From contig JAIOSI010000221.1 in NCBI GenBank assembly GCA_021107695.1, positions 1 to 17,098 on the forward strand: 17,098 nucleotides of DNA. The letters are read 5' to 3'. Source of the stretch: a bacterium. GTDB lineage: Bacteria; RBG-13-66-14. Of the stretch, positions 4,751 through 17,098 are shown piece by piece. Every line of letters starts with the position of its first letter. Positions within the stretch are counted from its first letter, which is position 1. The notes under the pieces were generated by a model. The model saw only the letters and a list, made by a program, of their open reading frames with translations, was not told the origin of the DNA and searched no databases. Position numbers and translations under genes: made by a program.

Positions 4751-6052
4751 CTACTGCTTGTCCAGGTTGATAACATGGACGGAGCAGGAGATGCAGGGGT
4801 CGTAGGCGCGGACGATGATCTCGGAGTGGAAGTGGATGTCTTCGTCGCTGAAGCCCGGATTGTTATCCACCATTTCCCGAATGTCTTTCTCCATGTTGCC
4901 ATAGTTCTGACAGGTCGGGGTGATGATGTCGGCACCAACGCAGTTGCCGTCGGCATCGTACTCGTAGGAGTGGTAGAGGGTTCCGCGCGGAGCTTCGATA
5001 CCGGCGGTACCTTTACCAGCCTTCGGCTTGACAACGGGATCCTTCGGACTGCCGTCGTACTCGGCAAGGACAGCGTCGATTACGTCGATGGAATCGGCGA
5101 TGGCATCCACCAGCTCCACCACCTGAGCAACGGAGTTGAAGAGCGAGTTGTGGATCGGCGGCTTGTAGCCGATGTCCGCAGCGACCGCCTTGGCGGTCGG
5201 GTGGAGCTTGTCGAAGAAGAGGTGGACCCGGGCAATGGCACCGACCATGAACGGTTTGTCTTTCCACGCCGAGTACTTGGCGTGGCAGTACGGCACCACG
5301 TACTCGTTGGTAACGTTCAGGTAGTCGTGAACATCCACCACGGTACCGTCGCTAACGGCGATTTTATCGCCCATGTAACCGAACTTGTCGCCGTAAGGAA
5401 CCAGACCGACGTAGGTGTTTTCTGACTTGAGGTAAGCCGGGATGCCCAGTCCCTTGACAATGGGAACCGTCGCGGCGGCGTTCTCGAGGGTTTTCTCCAG
5501 ACGATCACGCAGGAACTTCAGCTCGTCTTTCTTCGGAATCCGTCCGAAGCCGCCGAGCTTGGTGTTGCAAGCATGGATCTCTCGTCCACCGACGATGTCC
5601 TGAATCTCGTTACCACACTTCTTGATGTCCAGGGCAATCTTCGCCACGTCGGGCAGGTCCTGCGCCATGTGGAGAGCGGAATGGTAGCGCGGCTCCATCA
5701 GGTCGGGCAGTGCCAGCAGATAGACGTGGAGGGCGTGAGACTCGATGTTTCCACCGGCAACGTAGAGCCGCCGGAGGAGGTTGGTCTGGTCGGAACACTT
5801 GACCCCGAAGGCATCCTCGGTAGCCTGGTTGGAAACGATGTTATGCACCGCCGAACAGATCGCACAGATGCGACAGGCAATGCTGGCGGTCTGATCGTAG
5901 GGGACTCTCTTGAGGAAATGCTCGAAGTAACGCATCGCCTCGTAGATGTCCATCTGTACCTTGTCAACCTTGCCGTCTTTTAGCTCGACGGTTACTCCAC
6001 CATGTCCCTCGACGCGGCAGAGATGGTCAACGGTGATCTTTCGATTTGCCAT
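4751..6052 (-). CDS. hydA: group 3b [NiFe] hydrogenase large (alpha) subunit
   Basis: This is the catalytic subunit of the soluble NAD(P)-linked hydrogenase (sulfhydrogenase) and holds the NiFe(CN)2CO site. The 433-residue protein starts at the ATG at 6052, with GGAG six bases upstream. The N-terminal RVEGHG motif (residues 13-18) precedes the nickel ligand motif RICAIC (61-66; Cys63, Cys66). The second ligand pair is in DPCISCSVH at the C-terminus (Cys420, Cys423, His426). Only seven residues follow His426, consistent with the short tails that group 3b enzymes lose during endopeptidase maturation. Ala at the position often held by Gly in the first motif is in keeping with this group. It is the last gene of the operon, 16 bases after hydD, and is followed by a terminator. 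No maturation protease or hyp genes are in the window. Confidence 0.95.
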   Translation of the reverse strand: MANRKITVDHLCRVEGHGGVTVELKDGKVDKVQMDIYEAMRYFEHFLKRVPYDQTASIACRICAICSAVHNIVSNQATEDAFGVKCSDQTNLLRRLYVAGGNIESHALHVYLLALPDLMEPRYHSALHMAQDLPDVAKIALDIKKCGNEIQDIVGGREIHACNTKLGGFGRIPKKDELKFLRDRLEKTLENAAATVPIVKGLGIPAYLKSENTYVGLVPYGDKFGYMGDKIAVSDGTVVDVHDYLNVTNEYVVPYCHAKYSAWKDKPFMVGAIARVHLFFDKLHPTAKAVAADIGYKPPIHNSLFNSVAQVVELVDAIADSIDVIDAVLAEYDGSPKDPVVKPKAGKGTAGIEAPRGTLYHSYEYDADGNCVGADIITPTCQNYGNMEKDIREMVDNNPGFSDEDIHFHSEIIVRAYDPCISCSVHVINLDKQ

Positions 6053-6068
6053 GTTTATCTCCGGCTGC

Positions 6069-6860
6069 TTAAGGAATATCGGTTTTGACCAGCTTGCGCG
6101 CGCCCAGATCTTCCGCCGAAATCGTTCCAGCAAAGGTACTCATCTGCTGGGCGATGTACTCTTTTGTGTAGCCCTTCTCCAGCATGATCTCGACCTCGGA
6201 GGCGTAGTTCGCCTCGAAGACCGGACCACGACAACCCTCGCAGGGGATGTTGTTGCTCGGACAGCGGGCACCACAACCGGCCTTGGTAACCGGACCGAGG
6301 CAGAACTTGTCCTGCTCGATCAGCAGGCATTCGTTCTCTTTGAACTTGCACTCGGTGCAGAGGGCGTAGGTCGGCAGCAGCGGCAGGTTGCCGTTGAGCA
6401 ACGAAGCCACCGCCTGAATGAACTGGGGACGCTCGATGGGACAGCCGACGATCTGGAAGTCCACCTTAACAACATCCTTCAGCGGCATCGGGTTGAAGCA
6501 GTCGTAGAAGGGATTGTCTTTCATCGTGTCGCCATAAACATCCTTCTTGGCGACCTCGCGGGGGACGTCGTTGATCATCGCCTCGACTCCGCCCCAGGAG
6601 GCGCAGGTTCCGATAGCGACCAGCAGTCCGGCGCGTTCCCGGATGTCGAGCAGTTGCTTCTTCTGTTTCTCGTTACTCACAGCTCCCTCGACGAAGGCAA
6701 TGTCGATTTCACATTCCACGTTGCCCGTCTGAGCCATGATAAAGCTCTTGATGTCCACGGCGGCGGCAATGTCGAGCAGCTCATCTTCACAGTTGATGAT
6801 GTTGAGCTGACACCCGGCACAACCGGTCAGGCCGTAAACCCCAATCGATGGCTTGGCCAT
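6069..6860 (-). CDS. hydD: group 3b [NiFe] hydrogenase small (delta) subunit
   Basis: This is the electron-transfer small subunit that passes electrons from the NiFe site to the diaphorase half. The 263-residue protein starts at the ATG at 6860 with AGGAG upstream. The proximal [4Fe-4S] cluster ligands are C14 and C17 (GLTGCAGCQL), C86 (GTCASWGG) and C140 (VGCPIERPQF). Eight more Cys (168, 171, 178, 187, 196, 200, 207, 210), including the CGARCPSNNIPCEGC block, suffice for two further clusters. There is no Tat signal peptide, which fits a cytoplasmic group 3 enzyme. The order hydB-hydG-hydD-hydA matches the sulfhydrogenase operon known from Pyrococcus furiosus. The gap to hydG is 53 bases. 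Confidence 0.94.
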   Translation of the reverse strand: MAKPSIGVYGLTGCAGCQLNIINCEDELLDIAAAVDIKSFIMAQTGNVECEIDIAFVEGAVSNEKQKKQLLDIRERAGLLVAIGTCASWGGVEAMINDVPREVAKKDVYGDTMKDNPFYDCFNPMPLKDVVKVDFQIVGCPIERPQFIQAVASLLNGNLPLLPTYALCTECKFKENECLLIEQDKFCLGPVTKAGCGARCPSNNIPCEGCRGPVFEANYASEVEIMLEKGYTKEYIAQQMSTFAGTISAEDLGARKLVKTDIP

Positions 6861-6913
6861 GTTTTGCTCTCCTATGTGTTTGTCGCGAACGACTTAGTCG
6901 TTCAGCCGGGTTT

Positions 6914-7780
6914 TTAGATGCTCTCGCGGAGGTTAATGGCATCCCAGTAGGTGAAGATCGGTCCGTCGAGACAGGTGTACTTGTGACCGATGCTACAGTG
7001 GAGGCACTTGCCGATACCACACTTCATCATCCGCTCCAGGCTCATCAAAATGCGACCCTTGGAGAAGTTCAGCTTCAGCAGCTGGTCGATGACGAACTTG
7101 TAAACCACCGGAGGACCACAGATGGCAGCGTAGGTGGTGTCGGGGTTGAGGTTATCAACCTTGTCGAAGAGACTGGTTACCACGCCGACGTTGTAGGGCC
7201 AATTACCGGTGGGGTCTTTATCCACGGTAACGTGGCACTCCAGGTCTGCCCGGGTGATCAGATCGTCGAACTCCTCACGGAAGAGGAGGTCTTCGGGGCT
7301 GCGGGTTCCGTAGAGCAGGATGACCCGGTTGAAGCGGGCGCGGTTATCGAGGGCATACCAGAGCAGGCTGCGCAGGGGAGCCATGCCCAGACCGCCGGCG
7401 ATCATCAGCAGGTCGTTGCCTTCCATATCTTCGACGGGATAGCCGTTGCCGTAGGGACCGCGCAGGCCGACCATCGAGTTGGTGGGCAGATCGAAGAGAG
7501 CGTTGGTAACCCGACCGGTCCGGCGGACGCACATCTCTACGATACCCTTCCGGGTAGGAGGGCTGGAGATGGAGATCGGACACTCGCCAACGCCGATGAT
7601 CGAAAGCTCGGCAAACTGACCAGGGCGGGTGCAGAAGCTCTCGGCGTAATCCCGATCTTCAAAGCGAAGCTGGAACAGCTTGTGGTCGGGAGCCTGGGGC
7701 TTGATGGAGACGATCCGGGCAAGTCGAGGCTTGTAAGGATTGTTCGCCGGATCGAGCTTGACTGTCTGTTTGCTAAGCAC
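6914..7780 (-). CDS. hydG: group 3b hydrogenase diaphorase (gamma) subunit, FAD/NAD(P)-binding with [2Fe-2S]
   Basis: This subunit exchanges electrons with NAD(P)H through FAD. The 288-residue protein belongs to the ferredoxin-NADP reductase-like superfamily, close to the dihydroorotate dehydrogenase electron-transfer subunit PyrK. The flavin-binding segment is GQFAELS followed by CPISISSPP (about 54-75). The nucleotide-binding segment is AGGLGMAPLRS (about 128-138), with the family's CGPP at 221-224. The C-terminal [2Fe-2S] ligands are C254, C259, C262 and C270. The start is a GTG at 7780 with GGGGAG seven bases upstream. It overlaps the end of hydB by eight bases, so translation of the two is probably coupled. 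I cannot decide NAD against NADP preference from sequence. Confidence 0.93.
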   Translation of the reverse strand: MLSKQTVKLDPANNPYKPRLARIVSIKPQAPDHKLFQLRFEDRDYAESFCTRPGQFAELSIIGVGECPISISSPPTRKGIVEMCVRRTGRVTNALFDLPTNSMVGLRGPYGNGYPVEDMEGNDLLMIAGGLGMAPLRSLLWYALDNRARFNRVILLYGTRSPEDLLFREEFDDLITRADLECHVTVDKDPTGNWPYNVGVVTSLFDKVDNLNPDTTYAAICGPPVVYKFVIDQLLKLNFSKGRILMSLERMMKCGIGKCLHCSIGHKYTCLDGPIFTYWDAINLRESI

Positions 7781-8807
7781 TGGTCATCTCCCCTCTCATC
7801 GCCTTGAGGCACTCGACATAGTCGATGTTTGCCGGACAGGCAACGATGCAGCGACCGCAACCGACACAGGCGGTGCGACCGAAATCACCCAGATAGGCTT
7901 GCTGTTTGTGAAGATAACGATGCTTGAGTCGTCCACCTTGGTTTTCGCGGAAGTTGTGTCCGCCAGCGACAAGGGCATGGTCGCGGAAGAGACAGCAGTC
8001 CCATTCGCGCCAGCGTTCGCCGGTTTCGCTGTCCAGGTTGATGGTGTCATCCACGTTGTAGCAGTAGCAGGTGGGACAGACCATCGAGCAGGAACCGCAG
8101 GCAAGACAACGCTCGCCCAACTCGTCCCAGAGCGGGTTATCGTACTGGAAGTCGAGGATGGTCGGCAGGTCGCTGGTGTCGAGTACCAGCTCGAAGGACT
8201 CATCACGCTTGTTGCGGAACTCCAGGTACCGCTTCGTGGTGCTTTCGTCAACTTCCTCGTAGATATCGGGATTGTCGTTGACGATGTCGTCGCCCTTGGA
8301 AGAGCCGACACCGATCAGGAAGTCGTCCCCCAGATCGGTTAAAAAGATGTCATAACCCTCATCAACGGTATCGGCACCCATCGACTTGCAGAAGCAATGC
8401 TTGTCGGGCATACAACTGGTGCCAACGATAGTAATGTTCTTGCGCCGGGTGAAGTAGTAGTTATCCACGTACTTTCCGGCGAAGATGTTGTCGAGGGTCT
8501 CTAATGAATGGATCCCGCAGGAGTGGATTCCGAAAAGGATCACGTCCTCCTCACATTCGGCGCAGGCTTGAGTGTAACCGTTGGTCTTGTCGTACTCGAA
8601 CATCACCTCGCGCGGTTTGTAGAAGAACTTCTTTGCCGGGATAACCGTGCGAAGAGCGTCCAGGGCAATGTTATCAACCTCGCCATCGAACTCTTCCCAA
8701 CGGTAGGAGTTTTTACCCAGCTTGACCGGCACATACACCTTGCCCCATTTTCCCAGACTCTCCAGGAATTTGGGAAGGTGTCGCTTGGCCATGCGAAGAG
8801 ACTTCAT
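7773..8807 (-). CDS. hydB: group 3b hydrogenase iron-sulfur (beta) subunit
   Basis: This is the iron-sulfur subunit linking the diaphorase and hydrogenase halves; its counterpart in sulfhydrogenases is associated with sulfur/polysulfide reduction. The 344-residue protein starts at the ATG at 8807, with AAGGAAG five bases upstream. The C-terminal part has two classical [4Fe-4S] motifs, CLACGSCSMVCP (C234, 237, 240, 244) and CVGCGRCIVACP (C314, 317, 320, 324). Further Cys at 97, 132, 138 and 140 (HSCGIHS and SCMPDKHCFC) lie in the N-terminal domain typical of this 4Fe-4S dicluster family and may hold another cofactor. It is the first gene of the operon. Its promoter lies in the divergent region shared with hdrC. 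Confidence 0.93.
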   Translation of the reverse strand: MKSLRMAKRHLPKFLESLGKWGKVYVPVKLGKNSYRWEEFDGEVDNIALDALRTVIPAKKFFYKPREVMFEYDKTNGYTQACAECEEDVILFGIHSCGIHSLETLDNIFAGKYVDNYYFTRRKNITIVGTSCMPDKHCFCKSMGADTVDEGYDIFLTDLGDDFLIGVGSSKGDDIVNDNPDIYEEVDESTTKRYLEFRNKRDESFELVLDTSDLPTILDFQYDNPLWDELGERCLACGSCSMVCPTCYCYNVDDTINLDSETGERWREWDCCLFRDHALVAGGHNFRENQGGRLKHRYLHKQQAYLGDFGRTACVGCGRCIVACPANIDYVECLKAMRGEMTSA

Positions 8808-8935
8808 GCGATCTTCCTTTCGGTGTTGGTAACGGAACTTTCAAGTCGCCTCTGACAGACTTGCTTTCAAGAACAAAAATGTATGCGTAACCTGTGATAT
8901 ACCACTGTTTTTCACAACAAAGTTTGAAGAAGTGT

Positions 8936-8964
8936 AAGGTATCCAAACGCCGAGGATAAGTCAA
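8936..8964 (-). promoter_or_regulatory. predicted promoter of hydBGDA
   Basis: Reading the minus strand, TTGACT (8959-8964) is followed after exactly 17 bases by TACCTT (8936-8941). The -35 is near consensus (five of six) and the -10 is weak (three of six), as for an activated promoter. The start site would be near 8929, leaving a leader of about 120 bases before hydB. Confidence 0.5.
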
Positions 8965-8985
8965 GACAGGAAACCAAGAGATAGC

Positions 8986-8999
8986 ATCTCAATTGAGAT
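8986..8999. promoter_or_regulatory. 14-bp perfect palindrome, candidate operator
   Basis: ATCTCAATTGAGAT is a perfect uninterrupted palindrome located 21 bases upstream of the hydB -35 hexamer, a typical activator position. A related GAATTGAGACTAATTCTC lies directly upstream of the opposing hdrC promoter. The cognate regulator is unknown. Confidence 0.4.
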
Positions 9000-9111
9000 T
9001 ACGCAGGCTTGTTATTCAGCTTTGATAAAGAGAACCTTCGGTGAATGGAAATCGATTCACAACCAATGGAAATACTCGGTAATTCCGCAGTGAATTGAGA
9101 CTAATTCTCCC

Positions 9112-9140
9112 TTGACAACACAATGCAGTCGTTATACCTT
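9112..9140 (+). promoter_or_regulatory. predicted promoter of the hdr-mvh operon
   Basis: A perfect TTGACA (9112-9117) is followed after 17 bases by TACCTT (9135-9140). This is the same -10 and spacer length as the opposing hydB promoter. An alternative -10, TATACC at 9133, would give a 15-base spacer. The start site near 9147 implies a leader of about 360 bases before hdrC. Confidence 0.55.
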
Positions 9141-9445
9141 CTGCTCAGGGTGAGTACAGGAGCAGCACTACAGATGTACCGAGGTTCTTCTGAACGCTAT
9201 CGCTTGATGTGCTTAGGATTACAAGTCGGGGCTGGTGCGGATAAGTTCGTGAAATAATTCTCAGCATATTCGATATTGTGAATTGTCTCATCGGTCGCTT
9301 CGATTACGAGAATCCGCAAATACAGTTTCTCCTCTGCCTGACAGTACCCGATCTGACCAAACCCGCCATTTTAGATTCGTTGATCGGTTGTGGTGGCCTG
9401 AGATTGAGAAAAATTTCACCAACTTAAGAAACTGGTAAGTAACTG

Positions 9446-9463
9446 GGCTGAACGTACTCAGCC
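9446..9463 (+). other. leader hairpin upstream of hdrC
   Basis: GGCTGA (9446-9451) and TCAGCC (9458-9463) form a perfect 6-bp stem with a 6-base loop, 34 bases before the hdrC ribosome binding site. There is no T-run, so it does not look like a terminator. It is a possible RNA structure in the long leader. Confidence 0.3.
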
Positions 9464-9509
9464 ACGAAGGTAAGATGCCACCCATTGCACCGCAATTAAG
9501 GGAGATATT

Positions 9510-10076
9510 ATGGCAACTATCTCAACCAAAGAGCTGACCCGGGAGTTCCTCGACGGGATTTATGACCATCCCGACGGCGAGAAGGTTAACCAGTGCCTCC
9601 AGTGCGGGACCTGTACCGCCTCCTGCCCGACCTCTGAGGTCATGGACTGGAGTCCCCGGCAGATCTTCGCCGCTGTTCGAGCGGAGATGCTCGACCGGGT
9701 TCTCGGTTCAAACACGGACTGGTACTGCGTCTCCTGCTATTCCTGCACTGTGCGCTGTCCGGCGAGCATTCCCATCACCGACGTGATGTACCTGCTGAAG
9801 AATCAGGGGATAAAGCACAACCTGATGCCTCGTGGAACCCGGGGTGCCAAACTCTCTAAGGCCTTCTGTAAAATCGTTAGCAAGGGTGGGCGTTCCGCAG
9901 AGTTCGGCTTGATGATGAAATACTACTTCAGCACCAATCCCTTCGCGGCACTGGGCAATCTCGGCTTCGCCATGAAGATGCTCGGCAAGGGGCGACTCAG
10001 CCTGGGTTCGGAGAAGATAAAGGATGTAAAGGGGCTGCGCAAAATGCTGGAGGCACTGGAAGAAATTTCTGCATAG
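9510..10076 (+). CDS. hdrC: heterodisulfide reductase subunit C-like iron-sulfur protein
   Basis: HdrC relays electrons from HdrA to the catalytic HdrB subunit. The 188-residue protein starts at the ATG at 9510, with AAGGGAG five bases upstream. Two [4Fe-4S] motifs are present: CLQCGTCTASCP (C29, 32, 35, 39) and CVSCYSCTVRCP (C73, 76, 79, 83). The ASCPTSEVMDWSPRQI and CPASIPITDVMY stretches are typical of HdrC. The C-terminal 80 residues are basic and helical, without a predicted membrane segment, so the protein is expected in the cytoplasm. It is the first gene of the plus-strand operon and is followed by hdrB after a 173-base gap. Confidence 0.93.
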   Translation: MATISTKELTREFLDGIYDHPDGEKVNQCLQCGTCTASCPTSEVMDWSPRQIFAAVRAEMLDRVLGSNTDWYCVSCYSCTVRCPASIPITDVMYLLKNQGIKHNLMPRGTRGAKLSKAFCKIVSKGGRSAEFGLMMKYYFSTNPFAALGNLGFAMKMLGKGRLSLGSEKIKDVKGLRKMLEALEEISA

Positions 10077-10249
10077 GTGCCTTCGTAGCGTAGCGTCCGG
10101 CTTGGTTGGCAATTATAGAATCAAGCGATAGCCTCACAAACGAGAAAACAGCTACGTTTGTCGAGTTATGCCAGGGGGCATCTGTGGGTCAGAAATAGGT
10201 TTCTTTCAGCCTGATTTTGATTGAGAAGAAAACGATCGAGGAGAAAACC
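10077..10249 (+). other. hdrC-hdrB intergenic region with a bulged hairpin
   Basis: This 173-base gap is longer than the other gaps in the operon. ACAAACG (10136-10142) and CGTTTGT (10155-10161) pair perfectly, and CTC/GAG extends the stem past one bulged base. There is no T-run. It may be a processing or mRNA-stability element, or nothing. No gene is visible. Confidence 0.35.
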
Positions 10250-11110
10250 ATGAAAAGCTACGCTTATTTTCCCGGCTGTTCGCAGACAAAAGCCAACCGC
10301 GCCTACGATGTATCCTCCCGCTCCGTGGCAGCGGCACTGGGGGTAGAGTTGCGGGAGCTGGACGACTGGAACTGCTGCGGTGCCTCCGCCTACCTGTCTA
10401 TTGATGACAACAAGGCTTTGGCACTCTCGGCTCGTAATCTGGCTCTGGCAGAAAAGACCAGCGATGAGCTGGTAACGGTCTGCAGCGGCTGCTATCTGGT
10501 GCTGCACAAGACCAACAAGATTCTTGCCGGCAAGCCCCGGGTTCGGGAGCGGATTGACCATGCTCTGGAGGCCGCCGATCTCTCCTATCATGGCGGTGTA
10601 AAGGTACGCCACTTCCTCGATGTGCTGGTCAACGACATCGGACGCGAGAGGATAGAGGAGGCGGTTACCCGCCCCCTGGAAGGCTTGAAGGTCGCCGCCT
10701 ATTACGGCTGTCAGCTCAGTCGTCCCTACGGCGAGATTGACGATCCGGAGTTCCCTGTGAGCATGGACTTCCTGGCGCGCTGGCTCGGTGGCGAACCGAC
10801 TCCCTTCCCCTATCGGGCGAAGTGCTGCGGCGGAACCTCGATGACCACCAGCCCGGAGGTCGGTGCCAGCCTCACCGGAAAGATTCTCGATTCGGCAATC
10901 TCCGGCGGAGCGGACTGTATTATTACCGCCTGCCCGCTCTGTCAGCTCACTTTGGAGGCGTACCAGAAGAAGGTCAGCCGCCAGATGGGTAAAAAGCTCT
11001 CCATTCCGGTGCTTTACTTCACCCAGCTGATGGGGAATGCCTTTGGGCTGACAGAGAAAGAGCTGCTGCTCAAGGATAGCCTGACGGCGGTTCCGGCACT
11101 ACTAAGTTGA
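10250..11110 (+). CDS. hdrB: heterodisulfide reductase subunit B-like protein
   Basis: HdrB carries the noncubane [4Fe-4S] clusters that reduce the disulfide substrate in methanogens. The 286-residue protein starts at the ATG at 10250, with GAGGAGA six bases upstream; a TTG 33 bases earlier lacks a comparable site. Both CCG domains are complete. The first has C10 (YFPGCS), C42-C43 (WNCCGA) and C78/C81 (CSGC). The second has C154 (YYGCQLSRP), C192-C193 (KCCGG) and C228/C231 (CPLC). All catalytic Cys appear retained, so an active disulfide or thiol site is likely. In a bacterium without coenzymes M and B the natural substrate is unknown. It lies between hdrC and a small zinc-ribbon-like gene. 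Confidence 0.94.
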   Translation: MKSYAYFPGCSQTKANRAYDVSSRSVAAALGVELRELDDWNCCGASAYLSIDDNKALALSARNLALAEKTSDELVTVCSGCYLVLHKTNKILAGKPRVRERIDHALEAADLSYHGGVKVRHFLDVLVNDIGRERIEEAVTRPLEGLKVAAYYGCQLSRPYGEIDDPEFPVSMDFLARWLGGEPTPFPYRAKCCGGTSMTTSPEVGASLTGKILDSAISGGADCIITACPLCQLTLEAYQKKVSRQMGKKLSIPVLYFTQLMGNAFGLTEKELLLKDSLTAVPALLS

Positions 11111-11153
11111 GCCACCAACAGAACCCGATTATTTTCCCGCCAAGGAGAGAACG

Positions 11154-11345
11154 ATGCTGGAACTCAAGCACAAACTGGACCCGGCAAAGGGCAAATACTT
11201 CTGTCTGCGCTGTATGCGCTACTATGATGAGGTTGTGCCGAAGATCAATGTCAGCGGCGTGGAGTGGATGACCTGCCCACTGTGTCATTCGCCGAAGGTC
11301 TTTACCTCGACTGACCAAAAACCCGTCAACGAGTTGGATTTTTAA
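11154..11345 (+). CDS. small zinc-ribbon-like protein in the hdr operon
   Basis: This is a 63-residue protein of unknown function with a strong ribosome binding site (AAGGAG, six bases before the ATG). Two CxxC knuckles, C17/C20 (FCLRC) and C41/C44 (CPLCHS), are 20 residues apart, as in zinc-ribbon or rubredoxin-like folds, so it probably binds Zn or a single Fe. There is no signal peptide. It sits 43 bases after hdrB and 119 bases before hdrA on the same strand, so it is probably co-expressed. It could be a structural or assembly partner of the complex or a small electron carrier. The gene call is good; the function is not known. Confidence 0.75.
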   Translation: MLELKHKLDPAKGKYFCLRCMRYYDEVVPKINVSGVEWMTCPLCHSPKVFTSTDQKPVNELDF

Positions 11346-11367
11346 GCGAGCAGGTCTTTGGGCGACT

Positions 11368-11386
11368 GGCGAACACAAGGTTCGCC
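11368..11386. repeat. short inverted repeat between the zinc-ribbon gene and hdrA
   Basis: GGCGAAC (11368-11374) and GTTCGCC (11380-11386) pair perfectly around ACAAG, within the string GGCGAACACAAGGTTCGCCC followed by CTACC. From memory, this string resembles a dispersed intergenic repeat seen in many bacterial genomes; a search would decide. No T-run follows. Confidence 0.5.
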
Positions 11387-11464
11387 CCTACCAGAAGAGC
11401 CATGCGACTAAAGCAATGATTGTAAAATCTCGTTTTGAGGGCAGGTAAACCAAAGGTGGCGAAG

Positions 11465-11950
11465 ATGAACGGTACAGAGCGAATCGGGGTTTACGTCTGT
11501 CACTGCGGAACTAATATCTCCCACACCGTGGATGTGGAAGCGGTGGCAAAATATGCCGCCGGGCTGCCCGGCGTGGCTCTGGCGAAGGAATACAAGTACA
11601 TGTGTTCGGAGCCGGGGCAGGATATGATCCAGGAGGACATTAAGGAACACGACCTGACCCGGGTCGTCGTCGCCTCCTGTTCGCCGCTGATGCACGAGGT
11701 TACCGTCCGGGTCGCGGTCTGGGGGGCGGGGATGAACCCCTACGTCTTCCAGATGTCCAACATCCGCGAGCAGTGTTCCTGGGTTCACTCGGATAAACGG
11801 GCCGCCACGGAGAAGGCGATGCGCCTCGTCCACGGCGCGGTGATGCGAGTGAGTCAGCATCGTGAACTCTTCGAGAAAGAGGTTCCGGTCCATCCCGATG
11901 TGATGGTTGTCGGGGCGGGAATCGCCGGAATAGAAGCGGCACTGAGGTAG
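11465..11950 (+). pseudogene. hdrA: hdrA, N-terminal fragment upstream of a frameshift
   Basis: This is the first 160 residues of HdrA, the flavin subunit that bifurcates electrons. The ATG at 11465 has AAGGTGG six bases upstream. The fragment contains the HdrA N-terminal domain with conserved Cys in VCHCGTNI (12, 14), YMCSEPGQ (47), ASCSP (72) and SNIREQCSWVH (104), then the start of the FAD-binding Rossmann fold, VMVVGAGIAGIEAAL (about 146-160). The frame ends at a TAG at 11948-11950. In the -1 frame the sequence from GAG at 11944 continues the fold without a gap as EVAESGKQVYLVEKEP. One extra base after 11944 would restore a single gene to 14838 of about 1,124 residues. Likely causes are a sequencing or assembly deletion in a GG pair, a true mutation, or less likely programmed -1 frameshifting. 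Confidence 0.85.
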
Positions 11951-12006
11951 CCGAGTCGGGAAAACAGGTTTATCTCGTCGAGAAGGAGCCTTACATCGGC
12001 GGTCAT

Positions 12007-14838
12007 ATGGCGATGTTCGACAAGACCTTCCCCACCCTGGACTGCGCCGCCTGCATCCTGACCCCCAAGATGGTTCAGGTCGGTCAGCACCCCAACATCA
12101 AACTGATGACCCTCTCCGAGGTCGAAGCTCTCTCCGGCTATGTGGGCAACTTCAAGGTTCAGGTGCGCCAGCACGCCCGCTACATCACCGCCGACTGCAC
12201 CGGCTGCGGCGAATGCGTCGAGGTCTGCCCCTGCGAGCATCCCTCGGAGTTTGAGCAGGGGATGAACCAGCGGCGGGCGGTCTATCGCGCCTTCCCCCAG
12301 GCGGTACCCAACTGGTATTCCATTGAAAAACGCGGCGTGCCGATGTGCGAGGACACCTGCCCCATCCACACCCGCACCCAGGGCTACGTCAACCTGATCG
12401 CCCACGGGGACTACGCCAATGCCCTCAAGGTGATTCGCGATGTCAACCCCTTCCCGGCGACCCTGGGGCGAGTCTGCCACCACCCCTGCGAGAGCGAATG
12501 CCAGCGCGGCTTCCACGATGAACCGGTTGCCATCTGCGCTCTCAAGCGCTTCGTTGCCGACTGGGAGGATGAGCAGGGGCTTGCCCCGGAGCCTTTCAAG
12601 ACCAAGCCCAACGGCAAGAAGGTTGCCGTGATCGGTTCCGGCCCCGCCGGACTAACCGCTGCCTACGACCTGGCGCGCAAGGGCTATGGCGTAACCATCT
12701 TCGAGAAGTACGACAAACCGGGTGGCTTGATGCGTACCGGAATCCCCGCCTTCCGCCTGCCTCGTGATGTGCTGGATCGGGAGATCAACTGGATCCTCGA
12801 CCATGGCGTTGAATTGAAGCTCAACAGCCCGCTGGGCGATGTAGGCGTAACACTGGATGATCTTGAGAGCAAGGGCTACGACGCAACTATTCTGGCTCTG
12901 GGTACCACCAAGGGCAAGGCACTGGGGATCGAGGGCGAGGAGTTGCCCGGGGTCGTCAACTGTCTGGAGTACCTCCGCAATGCCAACCTGAGGGACGAGG
13001 TGGAGACCGGCAAGCGGGTGAGCGTGGTCGGCGGTGGCAACGCCGCCATCGACTCCGCCCGCACGGCATTGCGCTACGGTGCCGAAGAGGTAACGATCAT
13101 CTACCGCCGCACCCGGGACGAGATGCCCGCCATCGGTGCCGAGATTATCGCCGCCGAGCACGAAGGCGTTAAGATGCACTTCCTGGTCAACCCAGTGGAG
13201 ATGATGGACGGAGTGGACGGGCAGCTCACTAAGGTCAGGTGCCAGAAGATGCGCCTGGGCGAACCCGACGAGAGCGGTCGCCGCCGCCCGGTACCCATCG
13301 AGGGCGAGTTTATCGAGGTCGAGACTGACCAGTGCATCCTGGCGATCAGCCAGCTCCCCGATCTGGACTTCCTGGTTAAAGACGAGGACTTCGACCTGAC
13401 CAAATGGGCGACGCTGAAGGCCGACCCCCACACCTGCGAGACCGGCCACGCCGGGGTCTTTGCCTGCGGCGATGCCGTAACCGGGCCCAGCACCGTGGTC
13501 GAGGCGATGGCATCCGGTCGTCAGGCGGCAACCGCCGTGGACATCTTCCTCACCGACGGCGACATGGACTACATGCGCCGCGAATATCACCGACCCACCG
13601 ACCTGCCCAAGATGGACAACGTCCGCCAGCCGGGGCTACCCACGGTGAAGCGCGAGGAGATTCCTCTCAATCCCGATGCTGGGATTACCCTGAAAGAGGT
13701 CGAGCTGGCCTTCACCGAAGAGCAGGCGGTGGCGGAGGCAAAACGCTGTCTGGTCTGCGCCGGCTGCTCGGACTGTCGGGTCTGCGTGGATGCCTGCGAC
13801 AAGGGGGCCATCGACCACCTCATGCAGGATGAGGTTAGCGAGATAGACGTTGGGGCGATCATCGTCGCCACCGGCTTTGAACTCTTCGACAGTCGGGAGA
13901 TGCCGCGCTACGGCTACGGACGCTACGATAACGTCCTCAGCTCCCTGGAGTTCGAGCGGATGTGCCACGCCAGCGGTCCCACCGAGGGTAAGATCATCAC
14001 CAAAGACGGGCGCGCGCCGGAGGCGGTGGCAATCCTCCACTGTGTCGGCAGCCGTGACGAGAACCACCTCGAACACTGCTCACGGGTCTGCTGCATGTAC
14101 TCGCTGAAGTTCGCTCACCTGGTACTCGATCACACCGGAGCCGAGGTCTATAACTTCTACATCGATATGCGTGCCTTCGGCAAAGGCTACGAGGAGTTCT
14201 ACAAGCGGCTCCTCAACGAGGGCGTTCACTTCATCCGGGGCAAGGCGGCTGAGGTTACTAACGTCGCCGAGTTACCCGAAGAGGAGGGCAAGCTGATCGT
14301 AATTGGTGAAGATACCCTGCTGGGGATGAATCGCCGGGTTCCCGTGGACATGGTAATCCTCTCCGGTGGTCTTAAACCGCGAGCCGATGCCGATGAACTG
14401 GCGAGGCGGCTGCATCTCTCCTGTATGCAGGGCGACTTCTTCCTCGAAAAACACCCCAAGCTGGCACCGGTAGATACCGCCACCGACGGCATCTTCCTCG
14501 CCGGAGCCTGTCAGGGTGCCAAAGACATCCCCGACTCCGTTGCTCAGGGAGCAGCGGCGGCGGCGGGTGCTTTGGTACTGGTGGACAGGGGCAAGGTGGT
14601 ACTGGAGCCGATAACCTCCAGCATCGACGACGAGGTCTGTAGTGGTTGCAAGCTCTGCCTCCAGAACTGCCCCTACGACGCCATCGAGTTCGACACCGAG
14701 AAGAAGATTTCCAAAATAGTCGAAGAACTCTGCAAGGGCTGTGGAACCTGCGTGGCTGGCTGTCCCTCCGGGGCGGCGACTCAGCAGGGCTTCGAGGATG
14801 ATCAGATCTTCGCCGAGATTACAGGCAACCTGTCCTGA
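12007..14838 (+). CDS. hdrA: hdrA, main part: HdrA with an inserted GltD/NfnB-like NAD(P)H oxidoreductase module
   Basis: This is the continuation of hdrA after the frameshift near 11944. The ATG at 12007 is only the first Met of the new frame, with no well-placed ribosome binding site, so the real coding sequence runs on from 11944. Numbering from 12007: residues 1-20 (FPTLDCAACILTPKM) and the cluster CTGCGECVEVC (64-74) are HdrA. Residues about 111-580 form a complete GltD/NfnB-like module: cluster Cys 114, 118, 157, 161, 165, FAD motif GSGPAG (210-215), and NAD(P)H motif GGGNAAID followed by YRRTRDEMPA (342-375), closing with CGDAVTGPSTVVEA. HdrA then resumes at CLVCAGCSDCRVCVDAC (581-597), VGAIIVATGFELFD and LHCVGSRD. 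It ends with a two-cluster ferredoxin domain, CSGCKLCLQNCP and CKGCGTCVAGCP. The protein is predicted to hold two flavins and several [4Fe-4S] clusters, joining NAD(P)H to the bifurcation site. Confidence 0.92.
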   Translation: MAMFDKTFPTLDCAACILTPKMVQVGQHPNIKLMTLSEVEALSGYVGNFKVQVRQHARYITADCTGCGECVEVCPCEHPSEFEQGMNQRRAVYRAFPQAVPNWYSIEKRGVPMCEDTCPIHTRTQGYVNLIAHGDYANALKVIRDVNPFPATLGRVCHHPCESECQRGFHDEPVAICALKRFVADWEDEQGLAPEPFKTKPNGKKVAVIGSGPAGLTAAYDLARKGYGVTIFEKYDKPGGLMRTGIPAFRLPRDVLDREINWILDHGVELKLNSPLGDVGVTLDDLESKGYDATILALGTTKGKALGIEGEELPGVVNCLEYLRNANLRDEVETGKRVSVVGGGNAAIDSARTALRYGAEEVTIIYRRTRDEMPAIGAEIIAAEHEGVKMHFLVNPVEMMDGVDGQLTKVRCQKMRLGEPDESGRRRPVPIEGEFIEVETDQCILAISQLPDLDFLVKDEDFDLTKWATLKADPHTCETGHAGVFACGDAVTGPSTVVEAMASGRQAATAVDIFLTDGDMDYMRREYHRPTDLPKMDNVRQPGLPTVKREEIPLNPDAGITLKEVELAFTEEQAVAEAKRCLVCAGCSDCRVCVDACDKGAIDHLMQDEVSEIDVGAIIVATGFELFDSREMPRYGYGRYDNVLSSLEFERMCHASGPTEGKIITKDGRAPEAVAILHCVGSRDENHLEHCSRVCCMYSLKFAHLVLDHTGAEVYNFYIDMRAFGKGYEEFYKRLLNEGVHFIRGKAAEVTNVAELPEEEGKLIVIGEDTLLGMNRRVPVDMVILSGGLKPRADADELARRLHLSCMQGDFFLEKHPKLAPVDTATDGIFLAGACQGAKDIPDSVAQGAAAAAGALVLVDRGKVVLEPITSSIDDEVCSGCKLCLQNCPYDAIEFDTEKKISKIVEELCKGCGTCVAGCPSGAATQQGFEDDQIFAEITGNLS

Positions 14839-14954
14839 GCCGAATGCTGAGGGGTCATTCTCAACGAATAACATACCTGCGGTGGGGAGCGAATATCTCT
14901 GACATTTGATAATTTCCTCGAATCGTCAGTAACACCGATAGCCCCCCTTCCCAG

Positions 14955-14978
14955 CCTTCCCCCCCAGTGGGGGGAAGG
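14955..14978. repeat. GC-rich inverted repeat before mvhD
   Basis: CCTTCCCCCC (14955-14964) and GGGGGGAAGG (14969-14978) form a perfect 10-bp stem with a 4-base loop in the 159-base hdrA-mvhD gap. No T-run follows, and downstream genes are needed for the same complex, so termination is doubtful. It could be a dispersed repeat or an mRNA-stability hairpin tuning subunit ratios. Confidence 0.6.
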
Positions 14979-14997
14979 AGAAAGCCGGGAGTCAATC

Positions 14998-15465
14998 ATG
15001 GCAACTGACCAATTTGAACCGAGGATTGTGGGCTTCCTCTGCCGCTGGTGTTCCTACACGGGAGCCGACCTGGCAGGCACGAGCCGCATCCAGTATCCGC
15101 CCAACATGACCCCGATCCGGGTGATGTGCTCCGGGCGGGTTGACCCCACCTTCGTTGTGCAGGCCTTCGCCGAGGGAGCCGACGGGGTGATGATCGCCGG
15201 TTGTCATCCCGGAGACTGCCACTACGATGTGGGTAATTACCGCGCCATGCGCCGGGTGCCGATGCTGAAGAATCTGCTGGAGCAGTTCGGCATCTCGCCG
15301 GAGCGACTGATGCTGACCTGGGTCTCGGCGTCGGAGGGAAGGAAGTTCGCCGCTGACGTGGTAACCTTCACCGAAACCCTGCGCCGTCTGGGACCACTGA
15401 ACTTCGCCGGGGAGACAAAGGCGACCGATGAGCTTAACTTAAAGGAAACCGCCCCGGCGGTGTAA
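14998..15465 (+). CDS. mvhD: MvhD-type [2Fe-2S] subunit linking hydrogenase to Hdr
   Basis: MvhD carries electrons from the hydrogenase small subunit to HdrA. The 155-residue protein starts at the ATG at 14998, with GGGAG six bases upstream. Conserved Cys lie in FLCRWCSYTGAD (C15, C18), RVMCSGRVDP and AGCHPGDCHY, the pattern expected for the [2Fe-2S] cluster of the family. The RRVPMLKNLLEQFGISPERL and WVSASEGRKFA segments are also typical. The last 20 residues are polar and probably disordered. mvhG follows after 12 bases, so the genes are probably translated from one mRNA. Confidence 0.94.
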   Translation: MATDQFEPRIVGFLCRWCSYTGADLAGTSRIQYPPNMTPIRVMCSGRVDPTFVVQAFAEGADGVMIAGCHPGDCHYDVGNYRAMRRVPMLKNLLEQFGISPERLMLTWVSASEGRKFAADVVTFTETLRRLGPLNFAGETKATDELNLKETAPAV

Positions 15466-15477
15466 AAGGAGGCGGAG

Positions 15478-16446
15478 ATGGCTAAACCAAAGGTAGCTTT
15501 TTACTGGTGCGCCTCCTGCGGCGGCTGCGAAGAGGCCGTGGTTGACCTCGCCGAGGACATCCTCAAGGTGGTCGAGGCGGTGGACATCGTCCTCTGGCCG
15601 GTAGCTCTGGACTTCAAGCTAAAGGATGTAGAGGCGATGGCGGATGGGGAGATAGCCGTCAGCTTCATCAACGGGGCAGTCCGCCTCAGCGAGCAGGAGG
15701 AGTGGGTTCAGCTGCTACGCAGGAAGAGTGGTCTCGTCGTCGCCTTCGGTTCCTGTTCCCATCTGGGCGGGATTCCCGGTCTGGCTAACCTGACCACCAT
15801 TGAAGAGATCATGGCGAACAAGTACGACCGCGCGCCCACTATCGACAACCCCGACGGCACCCGCCCCCTGCCCCGACCCGTCGTGGACGGCTACGAGCTG
15901 GAGCTTCCCACACCCTGGAATACGGTGAAACGCCTTGACGAGGTGATTGAGGTTGACTACTACCTGCCCGGCTGCGCTCCTCCGCCGGAGCTGATAATGA
16001 CGGCGGTGCAGGCGATCCTCGCCGGAGAGCTGCCCCCCAAGGGGTCGGTCATCTCGCCGGAGAAAACCCTCTGCGAGTCCTGCCCACTAAACGAGAGCAA
16101 GCCCGACGAGTTGGTGATTACCGAGTTCAAGCGGGTCGCCACCAGCCAGCCCAAACCCGACGAGTGCTATCTGGCTCAGGGCTTCGTCTGTATGGGTCCT
16201 GCCACCCGCTCCGGCTGCGGTGAGCGTTGTATCCACGGAAACATGCCCTGCCGAGGCTGCTTCGGTCCACCACCGGGGGCGCGGGATCAGGGAACCAAGC
16301 TGCTCTCCGCCATCGCCTCCGCCGGAGCTGCCGAGAATAAAGACGAAGCCGATCTCTTTGCCAAAGGGTTCGTTGACCCGGCGGGAACCCTTTACCGCTT
16401 TAGCGTACCCAGCTCAATCCTCAAACGAACCCTTAAGGGGAAATAA
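15478..16446 (+). CDS. mvhG: group 3c [NiFe] hydrogenase small subunit
   Basis: This small subunit conducts electrons from MvhA to MvhD. The 322-residue protein starts at the ATG at 15478 with AAGGAGGCGGAG upstream. Proximal cluster ligands are C14/C17 (CASCGGCEE), C93 (FGSCSHLGG) and C166 (LPGCAPPPE). Eight further Cys (199, 202, 230, 238, 247, 251, 258, 261), ending in the CGERCIHGNMPCRGC block, can ligate two more [4Fe-4S] clusters. There is no twin-arginine signal, so the enzyme is cytoplasmic. It is clearly diverged from hydD in this window: it has a longer insert around residues 110-155 (RAPTIDNPDGTRPLPRP) and an extra 60 residues at the C-terminus. mvhA follows after nine bases. Confidence 0.94.
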   Translation: MAKPKVAFYWCASCGGCEEAVVDLAEDILKVVEAVDIVLWPVALDFKLKDVEAMADGEIAVSFINGAVRLSEQEEWVQLLRRKSGLVVAFGSCSHLGGIPGLANLTTIEEIMANKYDRAPTIDNPDGTRPLPRPVVDGYELELPTPWNTVKRLDEVIEVDYYLPGCAPPPELIMTAVQAILAGELPPKGSVISPEKTLCESCPLNESKPDELVITEFKRVATSQPKPDECYLAQGFVCMGPATRSGCGERCIHGNMPCRGCFGPPPGARDQGTKLLSAIASAGAAENKDEADLFAKGFVDPAGTLYRFSVPSSILKRTLKGK

Positions 16447-16455
16447 GGAGGGCCA

Positions 16456-17098
16456 ATGGGAAAGCAGATTACCATCAACCCGATCACTCGTCTGGAAGGC
16501 CACGGCAAGATCGAGATATTCCTCGACGACCAGGGCGACGTGGAACGGGCCTTCTTTCAGGTGCCGGAAATCCGTGGCTTTGAGACCTTCTGTCTGGGAC
16601 GACCCTCCGAGGAGATGCCCCGCATCACCGCGCGCATCTGCGGAGTCTGTCCCACGGCTCATCACATGGCGTCAACGAAGGCACTTGACGACCTCTGGAA
16701 GGTCGAACCTCCCCGCACGGCGAAGCTCCTGCGCGAACTGGTCTATAACGCCTTCATGTTCGAGGACCACAACCTGCACTTCTTCTTCCTCGGAGGTCCC
16801 GACTTCATCGTCGGTCCCGACGCTCCCGCCGCCGAGCGCAATATCCTCGGCGTGATCGCCAAGGTCGGGCTGGACATCGCCGGAAAGCTGATCAAAATTC
16901 GCCGTGAAACCCGCAACATCATCGAGACCATCGGCGGCAAGGTAATCCACCCGGTCTTTGGTCTCCCCGGTGGTGTCTCGCGGGGAATTGATGAAGATGA
17001 GCGGCAGAAGTTCCTTACCGTGGCTAAGGAGTCGGTGGGCTTCGCCCAGTTCGCCCTGCAAGCCTTCGACGACATCGTCCTCAAAAACAAGGACTATG
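16456..17098 (+). CDS. mvhA: group 3c [NiFe] hydrogenase large subunit, N-terminal part (cut by window end)
   Basis: This is the catalytic large subunit of the Mvh-type hydrogenase. The ATG at 16456 follows AAGGAGG (16445-16451), and the frame remains open to the right edge (about 214 residues). RLEGHG (12-17) and the nickel-ligand motif RICGVCPTAHH (60-70; Cys62, Cys65) are intact. Unlike hydA in this window, it has the canonical Gly in RxCGxC. The C-terminal DPCxxC motif and maturation tail lie outside the window. Confidence 0.93.
   Translation, partial: MGKQITINPITRLEGHGKIEIFLDDQGDVERAFFQVPEIRGFETFCLGRPSEEMPRITARICGVCPTAHHMASTKALDDLWKVEPPRTAKLLRELVYNAFMFEDHNLHFFFLGGPDFIVGPDAPAAERNILGVIAKVGLDIAGKLIKIRRETRNIIETIGGKVIHPVFGLPGGVSRGIDEDERQKFLTVAKESVGFAQFALQAFDDIVLKNKDY

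Follow-up and report, generated by a model that had tools for sequence, protein, structure and literature searches.

Known heterodisulfide reductase (Hdr) complexes link H2, formate or F420 to ferredoxin and a disulfide. The gene considered here, hdrA of a bacterial stretch of 17,098 nucleotides (contig JAIOSI010000221.1; this whole stretch is called the window), carries in addition a GltD-like module with a site for NAD(P)H, reduced nicotinamide adenine dinucleotide (NADH) or its phosphate (NADPH), in the middle of HdrA. Published counterparts are cited below by PubMed Central accession, from those portions of the papers that were available. HdrL1-3 of Desulfobacterium autotrophicum (Strittmatter 2009, PMC2702500) were described as a "heterodisulfide reductase/glutamate synthase fusion" with an NADH site, adjoining mvhD as in the window, a likeness by description only; the name HdrL, given in a preliminary description of this DNA, is therefore correct. 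In D. autotrophicum dsrABC follows HdrL1 and mvhD, and HdrL1 and HdrL3 are selenoproteins. In the Moorella thermoacetica HdrABC-MvhD-MetVF complex (PMC9430772) a GltD unit interrupts the TrxR/ferredoxin unit of HdrA, again as in the window, and NADH oxidation has been measured; this HdrA is, however, a double one (163 kDa), with MetVF in place of MvhAG. Unlike the window, HdrA9, 10 and 11 of the anaerobic methanotrophic archaea (ANME) of group ANME-1 (PMC9012536) lie in clusters with several hdrA copies, and most ANME genomes there lack mvhA and mvhG.

The type III HdrA of methane-metabolizing archaea (PMC12054007) is, like the window protein, a type I HdrA with GltD between the clusters of the inserted ferredoxin domain; it keeps the bifurcation residues, as does the window protein, and one Bathyarchaeota cluster includes mvhADG. 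That set comprises nine archaeal sequences with a reported GxGxxG (NAD-type) motif, whereas the window protein is bacterial, its second Rossmann motif is GxGxxA accompanied by YRR, and hdrB-hdrC stand in the same run. The authors of that study inferred NAD for their set, and the low-potential acceptor from sequence and structure prediction. StnC/NfnA of the Bfu-type NfnABC transhydrogenases (8oh5, 9bov, 9n5u; PMC10482914) shares with the window insert the GltD module, a terminal CxxC and the Lys of the proximal cluster, but its host is NuoG-like and works with StnAB, whereas the host here is HdrA. The architecture is thus already known from HdrL (2009), ANME-1 HdrA9-11 (2022), Moorella HdrA (2022) and type III HdrA (2025), and what is new is the bacterial lineage. 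Its combination with MvhADG, which the preliminary description had singled out for attention, has been reported in Bathyarchaeota and was found in several bacterial phyla. Neither the swap history nor the split HdrA-Bfu form set out below was found in the available portions of the open-licence literature.

The hdrA gene occupies 11465-14838 of the forward strand, its ATG being assigned by reading; the start at 11944 given previously lies merely near the beginning of the second frame. Residues are numbered after P0003, a near-identical intact database protein, residue r starting at window base 11935 + 3(r - 158) for r > 161. The features of the gene are as follows.

11465..11947, + strand: N-terminal Fe-S domain of HdrA and start of its flavin adenine dinucleotide (FAD; TrxR) domain, up to the frame break (NCBIfam HdrA2, 1.3e-63, on P0001)
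11947..11948, + strand: frame break, one base fewer than in relatives (alignment with L029/L030; P0003 is also without the break)
11949..12333, + strand: second part of the FAD domain and first cluster of the inserted ferredoxin domain (C245, C248, C251, C255)
12334..13764, + strand: inserted GltD-like module, residues 291-767, 477 residues (PF14691, PF07992, PRK12771/PRK12814; gap against 5odc_A at 291/293)
12544..12546, + strand: Lys361, counterpart of Lys170, which in StnC is an unusual ligand of the flavin-proximal cluster (counted along the structure-chain alignment)
12634..12651, + strand: FAD motif GSGPAG (sequence; PF07992)
13030..13047, + strand: nucleotide motif GGGNAA, GxGxxA (sequence)
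13102..13110, + strand: Tyr-Arg-Arg behind the second beta strand; by analogy with StnC and NfnB, of NADP type (alignment with solved chains)
13747..13797, + strand: Cys run C762-C765-C768-C771-C774-C778, the module end and second cluster of the HdrA inserted ferredoxin domain (Cys conservation in relatives)
13765..14838, + strand: HdrA resumes, with the rest of the FAD domain (E831, K882) and the C-terminal ferredoxin domain

The order HdrA/GltD-like/HdrA is far beyond chance, with NCBIfam HdrA2 matching both flanks. PRK12771 matches P0002 residues 130-641 [5e-148] and PRK12814 residues 137-617 [2e-134], and Pfam domains PF14691 and PF07992 fall in the middle part of the protein. In the alignment with HdrA of a methanogen [5odc_A], residues 5-290 pair with 4-291 and residues 768-1121 with 293-648, which places the insert inside the inserted ferredoxin domain, between C255 and C768. 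The scan bears out the preliminary description, which had proposed a GltD-type NAD(P)H module of about 470 residues in the middle of HdrA, and its cluster Cys, FAD motif and nucleotide motif are intact in the module sequence. Domain order, cofactor residues and gene order are seen directly in sequence and fold.

Among 100 loci (L029-L128), a set selected on query similarity whose members are not independent, 85 GltD-like stretches were found, and 63 of these (in 61 loci) lie in frame between HdrA halves; they are the relatives counted below. The other 22 stand outside the residue counts, 12 having the upstream half only and 2 the downstream half only, with 4 behind NuoF and 4 next to neither. 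The full type III domain set is present in the window protein (N-terminal Fe-S, TrxR/FAD, inserted and C-terminal ferredoxin domains). E356 and K409, the signature of the bifurcating HdrA flavin (PMC9430772, citing Appel 2021), map by alignment with 5odc_A to E831 and K882, retained in 62 and 61 of the 63 relatives. By these features of its sequence the window protein is a bacterial type III HdrA (HdrL).

P0003 reads through as 1,124 residues, exactly the frame-corrected length given earlier, and apart from the break differs from the window at residues 81, 83, 93, 94 and 217. Since this near-identical protein is intact, the base missing near 11947 is probably an error. The frame break might suggest that the fusion is an artefact of assembly or annotation, two genes having been joined or a pseudogene being in decay, a reading to which we attach next to no probability: P0003 is intact, and 60 of the 63 in-frame fusions, from bacteria and archaea, have neither stop nor masked base over residues 200-900 (the exceptions are L067 and L095 with one stop each and L031 with a masked stretch). 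The joining of two genes by misassembly, raised in the preliminary description, is untenable as the cause of the fusion, given P0003 and the recurrence of the same in-frame order in 61 loci.

The best matches of the insert among solved sequences are 9bov_A and 9n5u_A (NfnABC) and StnC [8oh5_C], ahead of NfnB [4ylf, 5jca] and GltD; the best structural matches of the module are again StnC/NfnA chains, the match extending through residues 776-783. The flavin of StnC is described as non-bifurcating, and the ligands of its proximal cluster C7 as three Cys together with Lys170, a position occupied by Glu in NfnB (PMC10482914). At the corresponding position 361 the 63 relatives have Lys (52), His (8) or Arg (3) and never Glu. 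C295, C299, C338, C342, C346, C762, C768, C771, C774 and C778 are Cys in every relative and C765 in 59; in the other four fusion genes (L061, L063, L067 and L092) Gly replaces C765, and the distal cluster may therefore differ. The module has the Lys170 equivalent, the proximal and distal clusters with C-terminal CxxC, and the NADPH fold of StnC; the fusion of StnC to NuoG/FdhF domains and its partnership with StnAB have no match here, where the host is HdrA.

Judged from these residues, the module is of StnC type and not of NfnB type, being closer to StnC/Bfu-NfnA than to NfnB; the NAD(P)H site of the preliminary description is confirmed at the level of sequence. Its probable role is that of an NADPH wire that does not bifurcate and is attached to the ferredoxin arm of HdrA. 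One might suppose instead that the module itself bifurcates in the manner of NfnB, giving one protein two bifurcation sites. This seems improbable to us: none of the 63 relatives has the NfnB Glu ligand, StnC and NfnABC chains match best, and the hdr-mvh run has no NfnA-like partner ([2Fe-2S] plus a-FAD), the divergent hydrogenase described below having a HydG of the wider NfnA family. A second bifurcating flavin is unlikely because of the nearness of the module to StnC/Bfu-NfnA, and an NfnB-type site is disfavoured by Lys361.

An acidic residue after the second beta strand of the Rossmann fold favours NADH. The window has YRRTRDEMPA there which, with GGGNAA, resembles the NADPH-using StnC and NfnB; among the relatives the motif is YRR in 53, LE in 8 and neither in 2, and GxGxxA is kept in 60 of 63. 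By analogy the YRR motif would make the nucleotide of NADP type, and the LE modules are possibly of NADH type. The first Rossmann motif of the window is GSGPAG and the second GGGNAA; for the archaeal set GxGxxG is reported without a clear indication of which motif is meant (PMC12054007, available portions). Two modules have degraded nucleotide motifs (L069, GDDDRA and SRLPQPKA; L076, GGTVTA and QRVRRG) and may have lost the ability to bind NAD(P)H. A further HdrA with a GltD insert (902 residues), followed by a second HdrA gene, is encoded in the genome of the window itself [L042 (G000:C273):1965-6998]; the motif of its module is YRR, that of its likely orthologues in L044 and L045 CLE.

Which way electrons would run through such a wire is a separate matter. 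NAD(P)H could be the mid-potential donor, the HdrA flavin bifurcating to the disulfide and, via MvhDGA, to protons, with formation of H2. This has been proposed for Bathyarchaeota type III HdrA with mvhADG (PMC12054007), the Moorella HdrA oxidizes NADH with benzyl viologen (PMC9430772), and the wire would be the same, its direction alone differing. Nevertheless we think this rather unlikely, as the motif in the window is of NADP type, known Hdr-Mvh complexes take H2 in at the donor side and, by our own reasoning, NADPH at about -380 mV hardly requires bifurcation to yield H2 at low H2 pressure.

The reading that we hold, with some reserve, to be probable is that the FAD-bifurcating core of an HdrABC-MvhADG-like complex has an NADP(H) module of StnC type connected to its inserted ferredoxin domain. 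We infer from the genes how such a complex would assemble, its cluster ligation, its direction, its nucleotide and the substrate of its HdrB. One electron would pass via HdrC to the disulfide site of HdrB; the other would pass through the inserted ferredoxin domain to cluster C6 (putative ligands C295, C346, C762 and C765), cluster C7 (C299, C338, C342 and K361), the module FAD, taken as non-bifurcating, and NADP+, so that NADP(H) would stand in for ferredoxin. The couples involved lie at -414 mV (H2, standard), about -380 mV (NADP+, in vivo) and -140 mV (heterodisulfide) (PMC9304861). By our arithmetic the H2 couple at 10 Pa is near -300 mV; reduction of NADP+ by H2 would therefore be uphill, and disulfide reduction could pay for it. 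The likely net use would be reduction of NADP+ by H2 where H2 is scarce, driven by disulfide reduction, or the reverse.

The preliminary description had foreseen one assembly coupling H2, NAD(P)H, ferredoxin and the HdrBC substrate. In such a scheme ferredoxin would still be used and NADP(H) would be an extra third partner on the same arm, which would agree with the retention of both clusters of the inserted ferredoxin domain in all 63 relatives. We consider this very improbable. The domain that docks ferredoxin is interrupted by the module, which in a published model seems to block access (PMC12054007), and in several BfuB proteins a module occupies the place where the ferredoxin domain would be. 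Because the module lies inside the ferredoxin-docking domain, NADP(H) probably replaces ferredoxin and does not supplement it.

Several points weigh against the preferred scheme, in which NADP(H) takes the place of ferredoxin. The Lys/Glu argument depends on a single studied enzyme; the published relatives point to NADH, which Moorella HdrA oxidizes (PMC9430772) and for which the type III study argues (PMC12054007). The predicted structure, made from 15 sequences, has a mean predicted local distance difference test score (pLDDT) of 76 and a predicted template modelling score (pTM) of 0.59, with pLDDT below 50 at 260-287, just before the junction. As a substrate for HdrB, no DsrC was found in the window's genome, which is 71% complete, so that this absence is weak. 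If the scheme is true, a socket taking NADP(H) for ferredoxin would explain how the same bifurcating core serves different carriers in diverse anaerobes.

Judged by identities, breakpoints and trees, the module and its host HdrA have different histories. The HdrA flanks of P0012 and L030 are 93% identical and their modules 45%. Left and right breakpoint ranges are 282-296 and 777-783 (L029/L030), 282-296 and 794-798 (L070/L096), 287-292 and 757-796 (P0027/L035), 238-293 and 777-784 (P0012/L031), 233-293 and 778-795 (P0012/L030), and 365-438 and 755-798 (L068/L076). The right range starts at 777 or later in four of the six pairs, and the exchanged unit therefore takes in the motif of the second ferredoxin cluster, wholly or for the most part. 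Gains were 68 to 180 log units in these pairs against 6.4 to 20.7 in three control pairs, two of which (P0003/P0012 and P0024/P0025) have a short variable stretch at about 690-768. L036/L038 show the reverse pattern, 90% identity inside 239-800 and 43% outside (with an alternative split, flank 54% and insert 90%).

Trees were built from 36 of 83 rows. P0012 groups with L030 and L031 in the flank tree (100/98); in the module tree it joins L029 (99/97), with L030 and L031 apart. P0027 has its flanks with a Desulfobacterales-type set (99/95) and its module with the window type (100/100). In approximately unbiased (AU) tests, for which all groups were defined after trees or identities had been seen, the module data rejected {P0012, L030, L031} (p 1.3e-4), {L070, L099 and seven flank sisters} (p 0.0024) and {P0027 and six} (p 3.5e-10). 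With flank data common descent was unrejected for {L036, L037, L038} (p 0.33) and {L092, L061, L063, L067} (p 0.15), and neither is counted as a proven swap. The modules of P0027/L035 and of L070/L096 also differ in YRR versus LE.

The same part of HdrA is broken in another way in relatives of the window. Among 14 genomes of its phylum, its own (G000) included, a full-length fusion of NuoG to the C half of HdrA is present in 10 and was not found in G000, G001, G003 and G009; in G004 and G006 it is visible on short contigs only. Nine loci, mostly with GltD, have the order hdrC-hdrB-hdrA (N half)-NuoE-NuoF[-GltD]-NuoG/HdrA (C half): L030, L031, L034, L131, L132, L134, L135 and L136 from the same phylum, and L133 from outside. 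L133 has a spacing of about 3 kb between the N half of HdrA and NuoE, and its contig stops within mvhD; the remaining eight loci have mvhD-G-A downstream, after a GltD-type HdrA in L030 and L031 and after extra hdr and mvhD genes in L136. By reading, the HdrA break falls a little upstream of the GltD site, within the same inter-cluster loop. L034 has a NuoF of the bifurcating BfuB/HydB type [9n5u_B, 659 bits, against 395 for the best complex I chain]. The BfuB of L134 [L134:9007-10929] ends in the usual ferredoxin domain, whereas that of L136, which belongs to the same genus and whose NuoF core is 74% identical, has a GltD module in its place; in both engines, therefore, the ferredoxin port is filled by GltD modules. 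A complex uniting an HdrA-type module with Bfu subunits is already known in Bam-Bfu (PMC9304861).

We therefore put forward, tentatively and at slightly less than even confidence, that the ferredoxin port of HdrA is an exchange socket. The GltD module and the adjoining ferredoxin cluster would be swapped as a cassette between hosts, some swaps going from YRR (NADPH-type) to LE (possibly NADH-type), and an entire Bfu engine (NuoE/NuoF-GltD/NuoG) could instead occupy the same loop, the result being a machine for H2, disulfide and NAD(P)H that has two different bifurcation centres. The carrier of a bifurcating complex would, if this is true, be determined by a replaceable part, and natural matched pairs (same host, different module) would test what determines the low-potential acceptor. 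A split HdrA-Bfu operon would join two unrelated bifurcation mechanisms in one HdrA frame.

The fusion was surveyed by taxon in the best 80 of 591 confirmed stretches in named genomes, mostly metagenome-assembled, with taxa taken from record titles. Among the matches listed, it occurs in Chloroflexota, Bacillota, Desulfobacterales and other "Deltaproteobacteria", Aminicenantes and Acetothermia, and in the archaeal Bathyarchaeota, Heimdall-, Loki- and Thorarchaeota and Methanophagales. Within 7.5 kb of the 63 fusion genes, matches were found to hdrB and hdrC (22), mvhD (47), mvhG and mvhA (13, a count inflated by cross-matches, for example in L050) and all five (8: L032, L051, L052, L056, L060, L072, L077 and L086); gene order was taken from best-match maps, mvhG/mvhA identities are only 28-40% in L072, L077 and L086, and many contigs are too short for neighbours to be judged. 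L051, from Acididesulfobacillus acetoxydans, shares the gene order hdrCBA-mvhDGA with the window. The fusion together with mvhADG occurs in several bacterial phyla. Plain HdrA is common in the same neighbourhood too (most of L105-L128).

In the window hdrA belongs to a forward run at 9510-17098 of hdrC, hdrB, a small Cys-rich open reading frame (ORF), hdrA, mvhD, mvhG and the first half of mvhA, and a hydrogenase lies divergently to it. NCBIfam scores of the hdr and mvh neighbours are significant yet under the curated equivalog cut-offs.

4751..8807, - strand: [NiFe]-hydrogenase of NADPH type, four genes (HydA/D/G/B, sulfhydrogenase kind), transcribed divergently to the hdr-mvh run (NF040832, NF040836, NF040835, NF040833, all under equivalog cut-offs)
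9510..10076, + strand: HdrC (TIGR03290, 5e-22, 78 bits, cut-off 160; Fer4 domains)
10250..11110, + strand: HdrB with two CCG domains (TIGR03288, 4e-60, 203 bits, cut-off 345; PF02754 twice; aligns along 5odc_B 2-285)
11154..11345, + strand: small Cys-rich ORF, 63 residues, CxxC...CxxC, between hdrB and hdrA (no family match)
14998..15465, + strand: MvhD (PF02662, 1e-54)
15478..16446, + strand: MvhG (VhuG NF045875, 4e-55, 187 bits, cut-off 450)
16456..17098, + strand: MvhA, N-terminal half, truncated by the window end (VhuA NF041785, 4e-66, partial)

The HdrABC-MvhADG gene set is thus found together at the level of sequence, as had been claimed; "complete" goes too far for MvhA, which runs off at 17098. 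A tblastn search with the 63-residue ORF found no match in the loci of relatives, though a probe this short can miss. The divergent hydrogenase, by its family, also couples H2 and NADPH. Similar four-gene sets lie near hdr genes in L050, L095 and L117; a flag for "3b hydrogenase" set in the count of neighbours is unreliable, as MvhA cross-matches the probe.

Elsewhere in the window's genome a separate NfnA/NfnB-like gene pair is present [C178, L043 (G000:C178):1563-3889]. At the completeness of 71% given above, for which absences are weak, searches of this genome gave no match for FTHFS or a MetV-like PF12225 protein, only a sub-cut-off match for RnfC, and for NuoF nothing beyond a 25% match to query residues 24-195. 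For the interval between hdrC and the divergent hydrogenase, a Rex-like operator was considered and rejected as not significant (8 matches in the window against a shuffle mean of 5, with 20 of 200 shuffles as high). No terminator was found in a scan of 8700-9600; the same interval has three promoter-like sites against a mean of 0.9 in shuffles.

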